Of a stretch of DNA of 64,000 bases, positions 55,926 through 60,382 are shown one piece after another. Each line of letters begins with the position of its first letter. Position 1 is the first letter of the stretch. The stretch lies in contig NZ_CP118164.1 of the NCBI RefSeq assembly GCF_028748185.1, positions 3,807,814 through 3,871,813 of the forward strand, written 5' to 3'. Origin of the DNA: Bremerella sp. P1. Its GTDB lineage: Bacteria > Planctomycetota > Planctomycetia > Pirellulales > Pirellulaceae. The notes under the pieces were generated by a model. The model saw only the letters and a program-made list of their open reading frames with translations. It made no database searches and was not told the origin of the DNA. A program made the position numbers and the translations under genes.

Positions 55926-57515
55926 ATGCAGTGGATACGCCACGGGCTGACGAGCGTCGTTATATCGGCCACGCTAAGTTATCTCGGCTTAGCACAGGGA
56001 CAGGTTGCAGCACAGGACATTGTGCCGCAACTCACCGCTCCATCGCCGATTACACCCAGTGTTCCGACTCGACCTCTGATTACCGGGATTCGCCTTCAGG
56101 GGAATGCCCAAACGGAAGAGACTCGGATTCGTTCGATGATCAAGTCACGCGTTGGTCGTGAGTTCGATCCGGAACAGATCCAATCTGATGTTCGCCGTTT
56201 GGCCGCCTCGGGATTGTTTCGCGATGTTCAGATTCTGACCGACAAGTCGGCCGAGGGAATCTACGTCACGTTCCAATTCGAGGAACGCCCGCGGATTGCC
56301 TACATCAAGTTTCTCGGCAACGAATCGGTACGCGACAAGACGCTGCTGAAGAAGTCGGAAATGAAGTTAGAAGGCACCCTCAATAAGTACGTGATCGAAG
56401 AAGCTCGGCTGAAGCTGGAAGATTACTACCATACCCGCGGACACGGCAAAGCGACCGTTCAGGTGGTCGAAGGATTAAAGCCGGAAGACAAAGGCGTCGC
56501 GTTCATGATCCACGAAGGGCCGCTGGCTCGAATTGGCAGTACGAACTTTGTTGGCAATTCGATTGCGTCGGATTCACGCCTGAAAACACAGATCAAAAGC
56601 AAGCCTGGCTTGTTTTATCTAATCAATGGCGAACTCGACAAGACTCAGGTCGAACAGGATGTCGACAGTTTGACGGCATACTATCGAAGCCTTGGGTTCT
56701 TTAAAGCTCAGATCAATCGAATCATCAAGTACAGCGACAGCGGCAAGTGGTCCTATGTCACGTTTGTCATTGACGAAGGTCCACGCTACGAAGTGCGAAA
56801 CATCTCGTTCGTGGGCCAGACTCGGTTTGACTCTGAACAACTATTCTCGCAGATCAAGATGGAACGCGGAGAGTACTTCGATCAAAAGAACATGACCGCC
56901 GATGTGCGTGCGATTTCCGATTTGTATGGTTCGCAGGGTTACATCCACGCGGACGTGAAAGCGGAGCCACGCTTCTTGGAAACGCCAGGTACCTTGGACC
57001 TGGTGTATGACATCCGAGAAGGGGATCAGTATCGGGTTGGTAACATCAACATCGAGATCTCCGGTGATTTTCCTCACACGAAGCACGCCGTGATTTTGAA
57101 TCGCATGTCGCTGCAGCCTGGCGACATCATCGACATTACGAAGATTCGCGACGACGAACGCCGCATCAAAGCTTCGCAATTGTTTGTCAACGAACCGCAT
57201 CGCGGCGTGGCCCCTTCGATTACCGTGGCTCCACCTGAGCTGACGGATGTCGAAACTCAGGTTGCCGAGCGAGGCGGAAGCCAGACCTACCGTGGTCAGA
57301 GCCCAACTTCGAACTATCAGCCGCAGGCCTATCCGCCCCAGCAATACGCAGGGCAGCCCAGCGGCTATCAACCGGCTCCAACGCAGCAAATGCCTCCCCA
57401 GCAGGCGGTGCCGCAAGTGAGTCGCTATTCGCAGCCTATTTATCGGGAAGCTGCTGTGCCTACACCGCCGCAGCAACATCCTACTTCCGTTTATTCATCC
57501 GTGCCCAGCAACTAA
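55926..57515 (+). CDS. POTRA-domain half of a split BamA/Omp85 protein
   Basis: 529 residues with a signal peptide (1-30, ending VAAQ). Five POTRA repeats follow: about 50-120, 122-197, 199-285, 286-366 and a fifth from 367 that lacks its last strand. Typical motifs are GNAQTEETRIRSMIKSRVG and RVGNINIEISGDFPHTKHA. From about 440 the chain is a Gln/Pro/Tyr-rich linker and then stops. There is no beta-barrel. The next gene encodes that barrel with the missing POTRA5 strand, so the two are read as two halves of one protein. In the BAM complex POTRA domains bind incoming outer-membrane proteins in the periplasm. Confidence 0.9.
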   Translation: MQWIRHGLTSVVISATLSYLGLAQGQVAAQDIVPQLTAPSPITPSVPTRPLITGIRLQGNAQTEETRIRSMIKSRVGREFDPEQIQSDVRRLAASGLFRDVQILTDKSAEGIYVTFQFEERPRIAYIKFLGNESVRDKTLLKKSEMKLEGTLNKYVIEEARLKLEDYYHTRGHGKATVQVVEGLKPEDKGVAFMIHEGPLARIGSTNFVGNSIASDSRLKTQIKSKPGLFYLINGELDKTQVEQDVDSLTAYYRSLGFFKAQINRIIKYSDSGKWSYVTFVIDEGPRYEVRNISFVGQTRFDSEQLFSQIKMERGEYFDQKNMTADVRAISDLYGSQGYIHADVKAEPRFLETPGTLDLVYDIREGDQYRVGNINIEISGDFPHTKHAVILNRMSLQPGDIIDITKIRDDERRIKASQLFVNEPHRGVAPSITVAPPELTDVETQVAERGGSQTYRGQSPTSNYQPQAYPPQQYAGQPSGYQPAPTQQMPPQQAVPQVSRYSQPIYREAAVPTPPQQHPTSVYSSVPSN

Positions 57516-57573
57516 GAAGCCTGGTTCAGCTCGATTTCCCCCCCGAGCGCCAACGCTGAATGAGGACCCCTAG

Positions 57574-59193
57574 GTGGACAGAAGCGGACAACTGCTGAAG
57601 ATAACCCTCGCTCTGAGTCTCGTCACAGGTCTATGTGCCGGATGGAACTCGGCTTCGGCTCAGGATTGGACTGGCGGAAGCTACGGGCAACAAGCGGCTC
57701 CCAACTGGAATGTGCAGGGACGCGACAATCAAGGTTATCCTGGAAGCGCACAGAACTGGGATTCGTACGATCGCACAGCTTACGAGTCATCACCCGGCAA
57801 TCCGAACCAGTACCGAAATGGCATGCCAGCTTCCGGTGCTCCGGTTGGCAACTACGATCCCTATCAGCAGTACCAGCAACCGGTCCAACCGGTTCAGTAC
57901 CAGCAAGGATATCCGTCGCCATCCAGTCCCGAGACAGGCATGTATAGCCAGGACCCATCCGGGTACGGTAGTCCTCCGATTCCGGCACCTGTTACCAGGC
58001 CTATGAATCCTTATGGCTACCCACCAGTTAACGGTCGACCACTGGGTGGTGCTCGTATCTACGATCCTCCGCTGGGTCCTGATGCGATCATTTCGCCGAA
58101 CCCTTACTACGATCCTGGTCGTACGGCCGACCTGACGATTCGTGCAGAAGAAGCTCAGACCGGGCGTTTCCAGTTTGGCGTGGGTATTAACTCCGACGCT
58201 GGTGTGACCGGTAATATCGTGATCGACGAACGAAACTTCGACTGGCGACGATATCCGTCCAGCGTGGACGACATCTGGAATGGCCGCGCGTGGCGTGGGG
58301 CAGGGCAGGGGTTCCGAATTGAAGCCATGCCAGGTACCCAGGTTCAGCGATACATGGTCAGCTTCAGCGAACCTTACCTGTTTGATACGCGGGTGAGCCT
58401 GAACTTGAGTGGTTACTTCTTCAACCGAATTTACCGCGACTGGGACGAACAGCGCGTCGGTGGCCGAGTGGGTCTTGGCTATCGGTTGACGCCTGACCTT
58501 TCGACGGCAGTTAGCTTGCGTATGGAGGACGTCGAGATCAGTGATCCACGCGTCCCAGGCGTACCTGAACTGGATGCTGTGTTGGGTCACCAGGATCTCT
58601 ACACGGGAAGTTGGAGTGTCACGCACGATACGCGCGACACGGCATTCGCCCCAACCGAAGGTCACTTGTTTGAGATCAACCTGGAACAAGCGTTCGGCGA
58701 ATACAGCTACTCGCGGGCGGAATTCGACTTCCGACAGTACTTCCTGCTGGGTGAACGCCCCGACGGTTCCGGGCGGCATACGTTGGGCTTCTCGACGCGA
58801 GCCGGTTTCTCGGGAGCCGACACACCGATCTTCGAAAACTTCTACGCTGGTGGTTTCTCCACCTTGCGTGGTTTCGACTTCCGACGTGTTGGTCCGAAAT
58901 CGGGTGACGTGTTTGTCGGTGGTCCGTTCCGTGTGTTGGGATCGGTGGAATACACCTTCCCCATTACCGCCGACGACATGGTCAAAGGTGTGATCTTCAC
59001 CGATGTGGGTGCGGTGGAAGAATCCACCAAGATCGTCTGGGACGACTTCGACGTCGCACCAGGTTTTGGTCTCCGCATTTCGGTACCCGCCTTGGGGCAG
59101 GCTCCGATCGCGTTGGACTTCGCCTTCCCAGTCAATCACGCCGATACCGATCAGACGCAGGTCTTCAGCTTCTTCGTGGGTGCAGCTCGCTAA
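57574..59193 (+). CDS. Beta-barrel half of a split BamA/Omp85 protein
   Basis: 539 residues. The start is a GTG at 57574 with GAGGA 7 nt upstream, followed by a signal peptide (1-30, ending SASAQ), so it is translated and exported separately. A low-complexity region rich in Gln, Pro, Tyr and Gly (30-180) precedes ADLTIRAEEAQTGRFQFGVG (185-204). That stretch is the last POTRA strand plus the first barrel strand in intact BamA. The rest is a 16-stranded surface-antigen barrel with the L6-loop motif LRGF (431-434) and FTDVGA (475-480), ending FSFFVGAAR. It lies 58 bp after the POTRA gene. Confidence 0.9.
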   Translation: MDRSGQLLKITLALSLVTGLCAGWNSASAQDWTGGSYGQQAAPNWNVQGRDNQGYPGSAQNWDSYDRTAYESSPGNPNQYRNGMPASGAPVGNYDPYQQYQQPVQPVQYQQGYPSPSSPETGMYSQDPSGYGSPPIPAPVTRPMNPYGYPPVNGRPLGGARIYDPPLGPDAIISPNPYYDPGRTADLTIRAEEAQTGRFQFGVGINSDAGVTGNIVIDERNFDWRRYPSSVDDIWNGRAWRGAGQGFRIEAMPGTQVQRYMVSFSEPYLFDTRVSLNLSGYFFNRIYRDWDEQRVGGRVGLGYRLTPDLSTAVSLRMEDVEISDPRVPGVPELDAVLGHQDLYTGSWSVTHDTRDTAFAPTEGHLFEINLEQAFGEYSYSRAEFDFRQYFLLGERPDGSGRHTLGFSTRAGFSGADTPIFENFYAGGFSTLRGFDFRRVGPKSGDVFVGGPFRVLGSVEYTFPITADDMVKGVIFTDVGAVEESTKIVWDDFDVAPGFGLRISVPALGQAPIALDFAFPVNHADTDQTQVFSFFVGAAR

Positions 59194-59518: not shown

Positions 59519-60382
59519 TTAACCCTCGAGCTCCATTCCCAGGGCGAAGATCTCCTCCGCGTTCAGAACTTGGTCGTTGCGGCTGAAAAGACGCTCGATG
59601 GCTGCTCTGTGAATGGCCATTTTGGTGCCACCCACGCCGATCGCTCCGTAGCAGATCTGGCCGAGGTTCTCCGCCGCTTTGTCTTGGAAATCGATTCCCT
59701 CAATCCCCAGCGGTGGAACGGCATTCAAATCGATCGCGACCTTAAGGTCCTTGGCTTCTCGGCGAACAGCATGCGGGACCAAGGTTACACCGGCAGCTCC
59801 GGCCGAGATCAATAGCTGCACCCCTTCAAGTGCCGATGCAGTCGAATCGGGATCGTTTGCGGCAACGGGTTCGGGAGAGCCGATCTGGATGTCTTCGGCA
59901 ATTTGTTTAGCGGCTGCTTGTGCTTTCTCCAACGACCGTGAAGCGAGTCGGACGTTGGCACCTGCCCGAATCAAGAGTCGAGCGGCACGCTGTCCAACGG
60001 GACCTGTGCCGCCCAAGACCAGTGCCTGAGCCCCTTCGAGTTCAAGATGGCGAGCACCGCAGATGACCGCGGCCGCGGCCGTCGTGTTGGCGCCGTTTCC
60101 GTCCATCATGACCGAGACGCGCATGGGACCAAAAAAGCTTTTGGTAACCGCAGTGAGCAACTCTTCGGCCTTGTCCACATTTGAGCCACCTACGTAGATG
60201 GCCGAATGTTTCAGCTTGCTTGGCGCACGGGTGAAGATGAGCCCGTGCACAAGTCCGGCGACTTGATCTGGGCTGACTCCACCATGGCGGAACATGATGT
60301 CGGCACCAGAGTCGACGGCGACGACCGAATCAAAGGTACTTGGTTGGGTATCGGTATCTAGCTGAAGTAGGATGTTTTTCAT
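59519..60382 (-). CDS. Methylene-tetrahydromethanopterin dehydrogenase, Mtd type
   Basis: 287-residue NAD(P)-dependent enzyme of the H4MPT C1 pathway that oxidises methylene-H4MPT after formaldehyde activation. The N-terminus MKNILLQLDTDTQPSTFDSV and the VMMDGNGANTTAAAAVIC segment are typical of MtdA/MtdB. A Rossmann loop follows: ALVLGGTGPVGQRAARLLIRAGA. GGTKMAIHRAAIERLF is conserved at the end. Whether it uses NAD or NADP (MtdB or MtdA) cannot be set. It is downstream of fae, behind a terminator that may be partial. Confidence 0.92.
   Translation of the reverse strand: MKNILLQLDTDTQPSTFDSVVAVDSGADIMFRHGGVSPDQVAGLVHGLIFTRAPSKLKHSAIYVGGSNVDKAEELLTAVTKSFFGPMRVSVMMDGNGANTTAAAAVICGARHLELEGAQALVLGGTGPVGQRAARLLIRAGANVRLASRSLEKAQAAAKQIAEDIQIGSPEPVAANDPDSTASALEGVQLLISAGAAGVTLVPHAVRREAKDLKVAIDLNAVPPLGIEGIDFQDKAAENLGQICYGAIGVGGTKMAIHRAAIERLFSRNDQVLNAEEIFALGMELEG

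Follow-up and report, generated by a model that had tools for sequence, protein, structure and literature searches.

BamA is commonly treated as a single chain in which movements of the POTRA domains are passed to the barrel. In the donor-strand complementation of chaperone-usher pili, an unfinished fold is completed by a strand of another protein; the fold concerned is unrelated, and here the completion of a POTRA sheet is proposed. The window analysed in this study is a stretch of 64,000 nucleotides from Bremerella sp. P1 (contig NZ_CP118164.1, positions 3,807,814 to 3,871,813), and it contains two genes, designated gene 1 and gene 2, that carry the N-terminal and the C-terminal half of BamA, respectively. 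No earlier report of a split BamA was found in the open literature searched. We consider it likely that these genes encode a two-subunit BamA, that a linker was gained in a turn of POTRA5 and the gene was cut inside this linker, and that strand beta3 of gene 2 completes POTRA5.

Two adjacent genes carry the halves of BamA

A reading made from the sequence alone had described gene 1 as encoding a signal peptide, four whole POTRA domains, a fifth that lacks its last strand, and a tail that ends in a stop. The open reading frame, Pfam matches and a structural model all agreed with this description (Table 1). Pfam identified five POTRA stretches, the fifth of which covers only profile positions 1-45 of 79. 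In an AlphaFold2 model of gene 1 alone, four beta-alpha-alpha-beta-beta units are followed by a fifth unit of the order beta-alpha-alpha-beta (E370-379, H387-392, H404-416, E431-434), from which the third strand is absent. The same reading had assigned to gene 2 a GTG start, a GAGGA element, a signal peptide of its own, a low-complexity stretch, the last strand of POTRA5, and a whole barrel with LRGF and FTDVGA motifs. The start elements are present, and the POTRA5 strand and the barrel were borne out by alignments and by the single Omp85 barrel that Pfam places in gene 2, respectively; the signal peptide and the two motifs were read from the sequence. LRGF, which we take to lie in loop 6 of the barrel, has R, G and F invariant among 16 aligned barrels.

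Both proteins were compared with the NCBIfam model of BamA (TIGR03303). Gene 1 matched model positions 3-395 with 245.6 bits and gene 2 matched positions 386-738 with 168.7 bits, both scores falling short of the curated cut-off of 297.15. The halves adjoin on the model, and its full coverage was reached only when they were combined.

Table 1 Features of the split BamA locus (window positions)
Feature	Position	Strand	Basis and remarks
Gene 1, exported POTRA protein, BamA N-terminal half	55926..57515	+	529 aa; stop TAA 57513-57515
Gene 1 signal peptide	55926..56012	+	By reading of sequence; apparently signal-peptidase-I type, cleavage between AA and QD
POTRA1 to POTRA4, complete	56076..57017	+	Pfam PF07244; strand and helix order in AlphaFold2 model
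POTRA5 without last strand (beta1, alpha1, alpha2, beta2)	57033..57227	+	Partial PF07244 match; model
Gln/Pro-rich tail of gene 1	57237..57512	+	pLDDT below 50 from residue 448; counterpart of fused linkers
RGQSP motif, common to linkers of fused relatives	57291..57305	+	Motif counts against shuffled linkers
Spacer, 58 nt, with Shine-Dalgarno-like GAGGA (57562-57566)	57516..57573	+	Sequence
Gene 2, exported barrel protein, BamA C-terminal half	57574..59193	+	539 aa; GTG start; other frame than gene 1
Gene 2 signal peptide	57574..57660	+	By reading; cleavage between ASA and Q
Low-complexity linker of gene 2	57661..58119	+	Sequence comparison
POTRA5 last strand (beta3), within gene 2	58120..58152	+	Alignments; counterpart is strand 700-710 in model of a related pair
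Omp85 beta-barrel	58153..59190	+	PF01103, E=2e-53; 16 strands in model of the related pair, not of the window's
LRGF motif	58864..58875	+	Read from sequence

The pair is the only BamA found in the genome

An intact single-chain BamA elsewhere in the genome, which would recast the pair as TamA-like or decaying paralogs, was sought with Omp85 and POTRA searches. A PF01103 search of the 6.96-Mb single-contig genome (99.68% complete) recovered no second Omp85 barrel at E ≤ 1, and no POTRA match was found outside gene 1; on the basis of these searches a second intact BamA was rejected. The TamA model scored 24.8 bits with gene 1 and 44.5 bits with gene 2 against a cut-off of 625, and the TamL model scored 50.3 and 33.6 bits, respectively, against a cut-off of 400. 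The ratio dN/dS, assessed against three close congeners, was 0.024-0.031 from POTRA1 to beta2 of POTRA5 and 0.036-0.048 across beta3 and the barrel. Low ratios on both folds and the low TamA and TamL scores speak against decaying or TamA-like paralogs. As far as these searches show, gene 1 and gene 2 are likely to encode the two subunits of the only BamA that this organism makes.

A search for BamD returned 16 matches of the YfiO family, all in frames of at least 501 aa (best E 6e-9), and a classical BamD was recognised in none of them. A promoter scan returned 0 sites, compared with 2.2 expected by shuffling. Three terminators were found (3.7 expected), none of them between gene 1 and gene 2.

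The split is uniform within the family

The identical split was present in all 35 loci of the window's family that have both sides on the contig (37 loci examined), and in all 69 loci classed as split, homologues of gene 1 and gene 2 lie next to each other. Both the spacer length and the relative frame vary among the family loci. Of five congeners, two have spacers that depart from the window's length by 1 and 3 nt, whereby the relative frame was changed or kept, and neither gene was affected. A candidate gene-2 start overlaps the stop in five other split groups (f69, f73, f77, f78 and one genus of f2).

Two frames might also result from a sequencing or assembly error or from a decaying gene, and one locus of the set (L104, genome G360) seems to be such a case. 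There, however, the frames overlap and continue one another, no signal-like start is present and the congener L105 is fused; this locus was rejected as split and classed as a frameshift. That a true frameshift looks different, that every assembled family locus is split despite varied spacers and frames, and that the window combines a second signal peptide and low dN/dS with a single-contig genome together uphold the earlier judgement that a simple frame error is unlikely. We regard an error or decay as having a negligible chance of explaining the locus. L232 was likewise treated as a frameshift because it has no signal-like stretch.

A fused protein could in principle be produced by programmed frameshifting or stop read-through, which the overlapping candidate starts and stops of the five other split groups would favour. 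In the window, however, 58 nt lie between stop and start, the spacer varies among congeners without effect, and read-through would leave a signal peptide inside the chain. Such a mechanism is very improbable.

Forty of the loci were chosen in part because their frames are short and do not represent random sampling; a separate even sample was used. Outside the window's family, frames of fewer than 780 aa among the matches listed comprised splits in G344 and G380, the frameshift in G360 and a frame cut by the contig end in G322. A second match in G388, of 622 aa, also appeared among the short frames listed there. An Omp85 match was absent from 9 of 297 genomes, including one of the window's family (G513). 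Loci with the barrel frame off the contig were left unclassed (L076, L077, L125, L133, L134, L136 and L138); L139 is fused even though its 5' end is cut, and L143 was classed as split although one scan did not find its signal-like start, since a hydrophobic stretch is present (2.17). The set holds two repeats (L225 = L067 and L183 = L137).

The break coincides with a linker in fused relatives

When a profile of the relatives was aligned with a solved BamA (9pxj chain A), the match extended to residue 404 and resumed at 407, which places the break in a short turn. A fused BamA that contains a long low-complexity linker (median length 226 aa) is found in most of the remaining families examined in the order and in two families outside it. 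This linker sits in the beta2-beta3 turn of POTRA5, the same place as the break. In four further families the turn is compact, without such a linker. The gain of the linker therefore probably preceded the cutting of the gene within it. The earlier proposal of fission of an ancestral gene with a long disordered linker thus finds its counterpart in the fused long-linker genes of related families.

A motif of the form R[GAMF]Q[SND] occurred in 68 of 76 long fused linkers, compared with 2.4 on average and at most 6 when the linkers were shuffled, and in 37 of 44 gene-1 tails of at least 15 aa. The Gln/Pro-rich tail of gene 1 is probably a remnant of the ancestral linker.

The BamA tree required five changes, and a single split clade was rejected (p-AU 0.00016). 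One ancient split followed by repeated re-fusion, in place of repeated fission, would accommodate the scatter of split lineages through one order. The outgroups are nevertheless fused, as is the family that branches deepest within the order in the tree (f79), and a signal-like hydrophobic stretch is rare in fused linkers, of which 8 of 76 reach the level attained by 67 of 71 gene-2 starts. We therefore consider an ancient split with re-fusion to be quite unlikely, and retain repeated fission.

Strand beta3 is conserved at the head of the barrel protein

The gene-1 alignment reaches beta2 in 30 of 33 split rows, and throughout the 33 listed rows the folded part of gene 2 opens with beta3. Gene-1 tails past beta2 are as short as 3 residues, indicating that gene 1 of those species lacks a third strand. 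Conservation of beta3 was similar in the two forms, with a mean pairwise identity of 48% in split and 53% in fused forms, compared with 41% and 47% for POTRA1-4 and 49% and 59% for beta1 of POTRA5. The POTRA5 helices were less conserved in split forms (38-41% versus 57-64%), suggesting that POTRA5 may have partly changed its role there.

A related pair was modelled as one read-through chain (pTM 0.56), from an alignment of 26 fused planctomycete, 4 gammaproteobacterial and 3 read-through sequences that favours the fused fold. In this model beta3 forms strand 700-710 within a block of pLDDT 93, the barrel has 16 strands, and the best PDB matches are BamA chains.

If the two proteins did not rejoin, the POTRA protein would be a soluble periplasmic chaperone and the barrel would work without POTRA domains. 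Separate signal peptides and the drift of the gene-1 POTRA5 helices in split lineages are compatible with this arrangement. Against it, the genes adjoin in every split locus, and beta3 stays conserved although it would be left without a pairing partner. We regard independent proteins as unlikely, though less so than the other alternatives, and favour strand donation between the chains.

A regular-expression search found a lipobox pattern behind the signal stretch in 54 of 71 two-frame loci, of which L078, L142 and L213 look like false positives. In many other species the barrel subunit thus probably carries a lipid anchor in addition. The pattern is absent from gene 2 of the window and from all six loci of the window's genus.

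Discussion

Comparison supports a history in which the BamA of a planctomycete ancestor acquired a long low-complexity linker in the turn from beta2 to beta3 of POTRA5. In several lineages, including that of the window, the gene would then have been cut inside this linker, with the downstream half having its own signal peptide. We further propose that both proteins are exported through Sec. The POTRA protein would remain in the periplasm, retained through its contact with the barrel protein. The barrel protein would fold into the outer membrane, its N-terminal strand facing the periplasm, and this strand would complete the POTRA5 sheet between chains. The complex would match ordinary BamA in shape and task, with the linker as a tether whose continuity is no longer needed. 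The fuller form of this proposal is an obligate two-subunit BamA in which a lent POTRA5 strand joins the barrel protein, with a lipid anchor in many species, to a soluble POTRA protein, and which evolved several times by cutting the same linker; in our judgement it is slightly favoured.

If this is true, the POTRA arm of BAM could be released or swapped for another, and BamA could be opened with its function kept at the turn that links strands 2 and 3 of POTRA5. A natural two-chain BamA with more than one evolutionary origin would reveal which joint tolerates cutting, and would offer a test system for how the barrel is driven by its POTRA domains. Should many of the barrel halves be lipoproteins, their route to the outer membrane may differ. 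For annotation, a single-chain model of BamA can miss the gene, as in the window, where neither half reaches the cut-off.

Among known systems, the TamL lipoprotein (NF052279) is, judging from its model name, an Omp85-type lipoprotein, as many of the split barrel halves seem to be; the match to TamL is weak, however, and the window's own barrel half does not carry the lipobox pattern. Compared with BamA of E. coli and Neisseria (TIGR03303), the pair taken together would provide the five-POTRA array, the fifth domain being divided between the genes, has the Omp85 barrel with LRGF and is the sole Omp85 found, but it differs in having two genes and two signal peptides, with the break in the beta2-beta3 turn of POTRA5 and each half below the cut-off. 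The fused long-linker BamA proteins of related planctomycetes, among them Adhaeretor mobilis (L200) and Aeoliella straminimaris (L194), have the same domain order and a linker at the same place, in which the motif is common, and differ from the pair in that the fused form lies in one open frame.

A single bamA divided between two genes

The genome of Bremerella sp. P1 is one contig of 6,955,728 bases and is 99.68% complete. Two adjacent genes in the window encode an exported POTRA protein (gene 1) and an exported barrel protein (gene 2).

Features of the divided bamA locus
Feature	Position	Strand	Remark
Gene 1	55926-57515	+	TAA stop
Spacer, gene 1 to gene 2	57516-57573		58 nt
Gene 2	57574-59193	+	frame other than that of gene 1
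Neighbouring gene, presumably a dehydrogenase	59519-60382		

Profile search identified five POTRA matches in gene 1, the fifth covering only profile positions 1-45 of 79, and gene 2 matched the Omp85 barrel profile (E=2e-53). Against the 741-position BamA model TIGR03303, gene 1 occupied positions 3-395 (245.6 bits) and gene 2 positions 386-738 (168.7 bits); each falls below the curated cut-off of 297.15 bits, and thus neither alone would receive the name BamA. The closest solved structures by sequence were BamA (YaeT) entries for gene 1, and TamA, BamA and 4n74 (entry name: predicted outer membrane protein and surface antigen) for gene 2. The sequence-only reading had left room for an intact BamA elsewhere in the genome. 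None was found: in a six-frame search of the whole genome, gene 2 was the single Omp85 barrel match at E<=1, and no POTRA match lay outside gene 1. No classical BamD was recognised in the genome, all 16 YfiO-family matches being in frames of at least 501 aa.

A homologue of the neighbouring gene shares a fetched stretch with split bamA (two frames) in the window's genus, in its sister genus and at locus L158, and with fused bamA (one frame) at two loci of family f6. This shared context supports the orthology of split and fused bamA.

Position of the break in POTRA5

A single-chain AlphaFold2 model of gene 1 (25 sequences; mean pLDDT 78.8, pTM 0.62) had BamA entries as its best PDB matches. In it, POTRA1 to POTRA4 each had the order beta-alpha-alpha-beta-beta; POTRA5 ended after beta-alpha-alpha-beta, and from residue 448 on the chain was modelled as a tail of low confidence. 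When a profile of relatives was compared with the solved BamA 9pxj, the match ran to residue 404 and resumed at 407, the intervening linker taking up about 160 profile positions. The alignment and the model together put both the insertion and the break into the turn that joins strands 2 and 3 of POTRA5. These results, with the two TIGR03303 halves, confirmed the earlier claim that BamA is split into two genes with the break inside POTRA5.

The last strand, beta3, was readable at the start of gene 2's folded part in 33/33 split rows listed. The gene-1 alignment extended to beta2 in 30 of these, ending before it in L084, L132 and L128. Between 3 and 122 gene-1 residues followed the aligned part; at L081, L140 and L146 there were 3, so gene 1 there lacks a third strand of its own.

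Sequencing error and gene decay

Of the 101 loci surveyed (the window plus 100 fetched stretches), 44 were split, 49 were fused, 7 ran off a contig end and 1 was frameshifted. The window's family, f1, contributed 37 loci: 35 split, and 2 that left the contig before any POTRA gene. Barrel frames of this family measured 438-707 aa in an even class sample of 148 genomes (n=19), and 438-720 aa in at least 55 genomes among the matches listed in an order search. In comparisons with three close congeners, the POTRA fold had a dN/dS of 0.024-0.031 and beta3 together with the barrel 0.036-0.048, tail and linker being higher. With three relatives at greater distance, dN/dS of the folds was 0.052-0.174, and several estimates for tail and linker were not computable. 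Two of five congeners had a spacer of a different length, by 1 nt in one and 3 nt in the other. The frameshifted locus, L104, belongs to another order and has two overlapping frames that each continue the other, lacks a signal-like start, and has a fused congener; it looks like a fused bamA whose linker was hit by a frameshift, through error or gene breakage. A sequencing error in the window was rejected, since 35 loci of the family share the split, dN/dS is low, the spacer differs and the L104 type of frameshift is unlike it; the earlier judgement that a frame error is unlikely was therefore upheld. The split bamA is real and common to the window's family.

The window's spacer is well conserved in five congeners, while the adjoining coding tails drift, and it includes seven consecutive C (eight in L071). 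At E<=0.001, 9/297 genomes of the order gave no Omp85 match, among them one of the window's family (G513); assembly gaps are the likely cause.

Linker and origin of the split

Linkers of at least 80 aa were present in 40/49 fused loci of the survey, providing the fused planctomycete homologues for which a search had been proposed; the other 9/49, from families outside the order (f8, f74, f75, f76), had a turn of 5-23 residues. With named genomes included, long linkers (n=76) had a median of 226.5 aa and a range of 104-883 aa, the maximum arising from partial POTRA duplication in L093. The 1429-aa frame of L093 (genome G353, f71) encodes a fused BamA in whose N-terminal part the end of POTRA5 and the linker start, RGQSPD, appear once more ahead of the full POTRA set; either partial tandem duplication or misassembly would explain this.

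The motif R[GAMF]Q[SND] occurred in 68/76 long linkers, compared to a mean of 2.4 and a maximum of 6 across 200 shuffled sets. In two-frame loci (71, including the frameshift-like L104 and L232) it was found in 37 gene-1 tails, or 37/44 of tails of at least 15 aa, and in 31/71 gene-2 N-terminal parts. Because fused forms carry motif-bearing linkers, also outside the order (f6 and f7), linker and motif seem to predate the split, and the cut to have fallen within the linker, in agreement with the proposed fission of an ancestral long-linker gene. Several linkers of fused relatives (for example L090, L099 and L150) have a strand-like stretch (IDVHL, MDVHL, VIDVAL and the like) between the first and second RGQ motif, which might serve as an alternative third strand for POTRA5.

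Distribution and number of origins

Split bamA occurred in f1, f69, f73, f77, f78 and one genus of f2. On an IQ-TREE mixture-model tree of 67 rows (POTRA plus barrel without linker), split and fused states required five changes, at least 3 forced by well-supported branches; a quick tree gave four, at least 2 forced. A single clade of the 33 split rows was rejected (p-AU 0.00016), and the rejection stood when the two f2 rows were removed (p-AU 0.00096). Some branches separating the split groups are weak, and the tree is that of BamA itself, leaving room for transfer between lineages. On this tree the split, although shared across the window's family, is not of single origin.

A scan of named genomes retained 80 loci, 66 titled planctomycete (26 two-frame, 36 fused, 4 cut off). 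Split examples include Blastopirellula sp. NORP48, Rhodopirellula sp. SM50 and Stieleria tagensis TO1_6, as well as MAGs with Rubripirellula or Pirellula in the title; fused ones include Adhaeretor mobilis HG15A2, Aeoliella straminimaris and a Thermoguttaceae MAG (L196). MAG titles are not always reliable, some fused MAGs being titled Kuenenia, Rhodopirellula or Blastopirellula.

Export signals

Gene 2 had a signal-like start in 43 of 44 split loci, the exception, L143, having a hydrophobic stretch. A hydrophobic stretch of signal strength preceded the barrel in 67/71 two-frame loci, compared to 8/76 fused linkers. By pattern reading, a lipobox followed it in 54/71 two-frame loci (at least 3 doubtful) and was absent from all six loci of the window's genus. 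L176 and L190 have a lipobox-like signal at the start of the POTRA gene as well, and both halves may be lipoproteins there.

Proposed rebuilding of POTRA5 and comparison with known BamA

In the related pair L187, only one stop codon separates the two genes, which share a frame; the pair was read through and folded as one chain, with an alignment of 32 others (26 fused planctomycete, 4 gammaproteobacterial, 2 read-through pairs). The model (mean pLDDT 72.0, pTM 0.56) had POTRA5 strands at 397-407 and 461-464, a mostly low-confidence stretch, a strand at 700-710 (block pLDDT 93) and then 16 barrel strands. This agrees with POTRA5 rebuilding, though such a fold can be expected when the alignment consists mostly of fused proteins.

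Among rows of the order, mean pairwise identity in split versus fused forms was 48% and 53% for beta3, 49% and 59% for POTRA5 beta1, 38-41% and 57-64% for helices alpha1 and alpha2, and 41% and 47% for POTRA1-4; beta2 (43%) and barrel (56%) were the same in both. Thus beta2 and beta3 are conserved to a similar degree in both forms and the helical face of POTRA5 has changed, perhaps reflecting a changed partner surface in split species.

The best reading, which we consider probable, is that the two proteins form one BamA by strand donation; our confidence is lowered slightly by the lack of a recognised classical BamD and by the weaker tree branches. The accessible part of PMC3422733 (2012) has no wording for split, fused, truncated, adjacent or two-gene forms or for a barrel domain, and that of the Omp85/TpsB survey PMC4104836 does not mention planctomycetes. 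PMC3422733, as far as available, gives one BamA accession apiece for Pirellula staleyi, Blastopirellula marina and Rhodopirellula baltica, and PMC8871954, in the portion available, classes BamA by POTRA number. The top PDB matches of the L187 model were BamA chains, over about 1030-1060 alignment columns.
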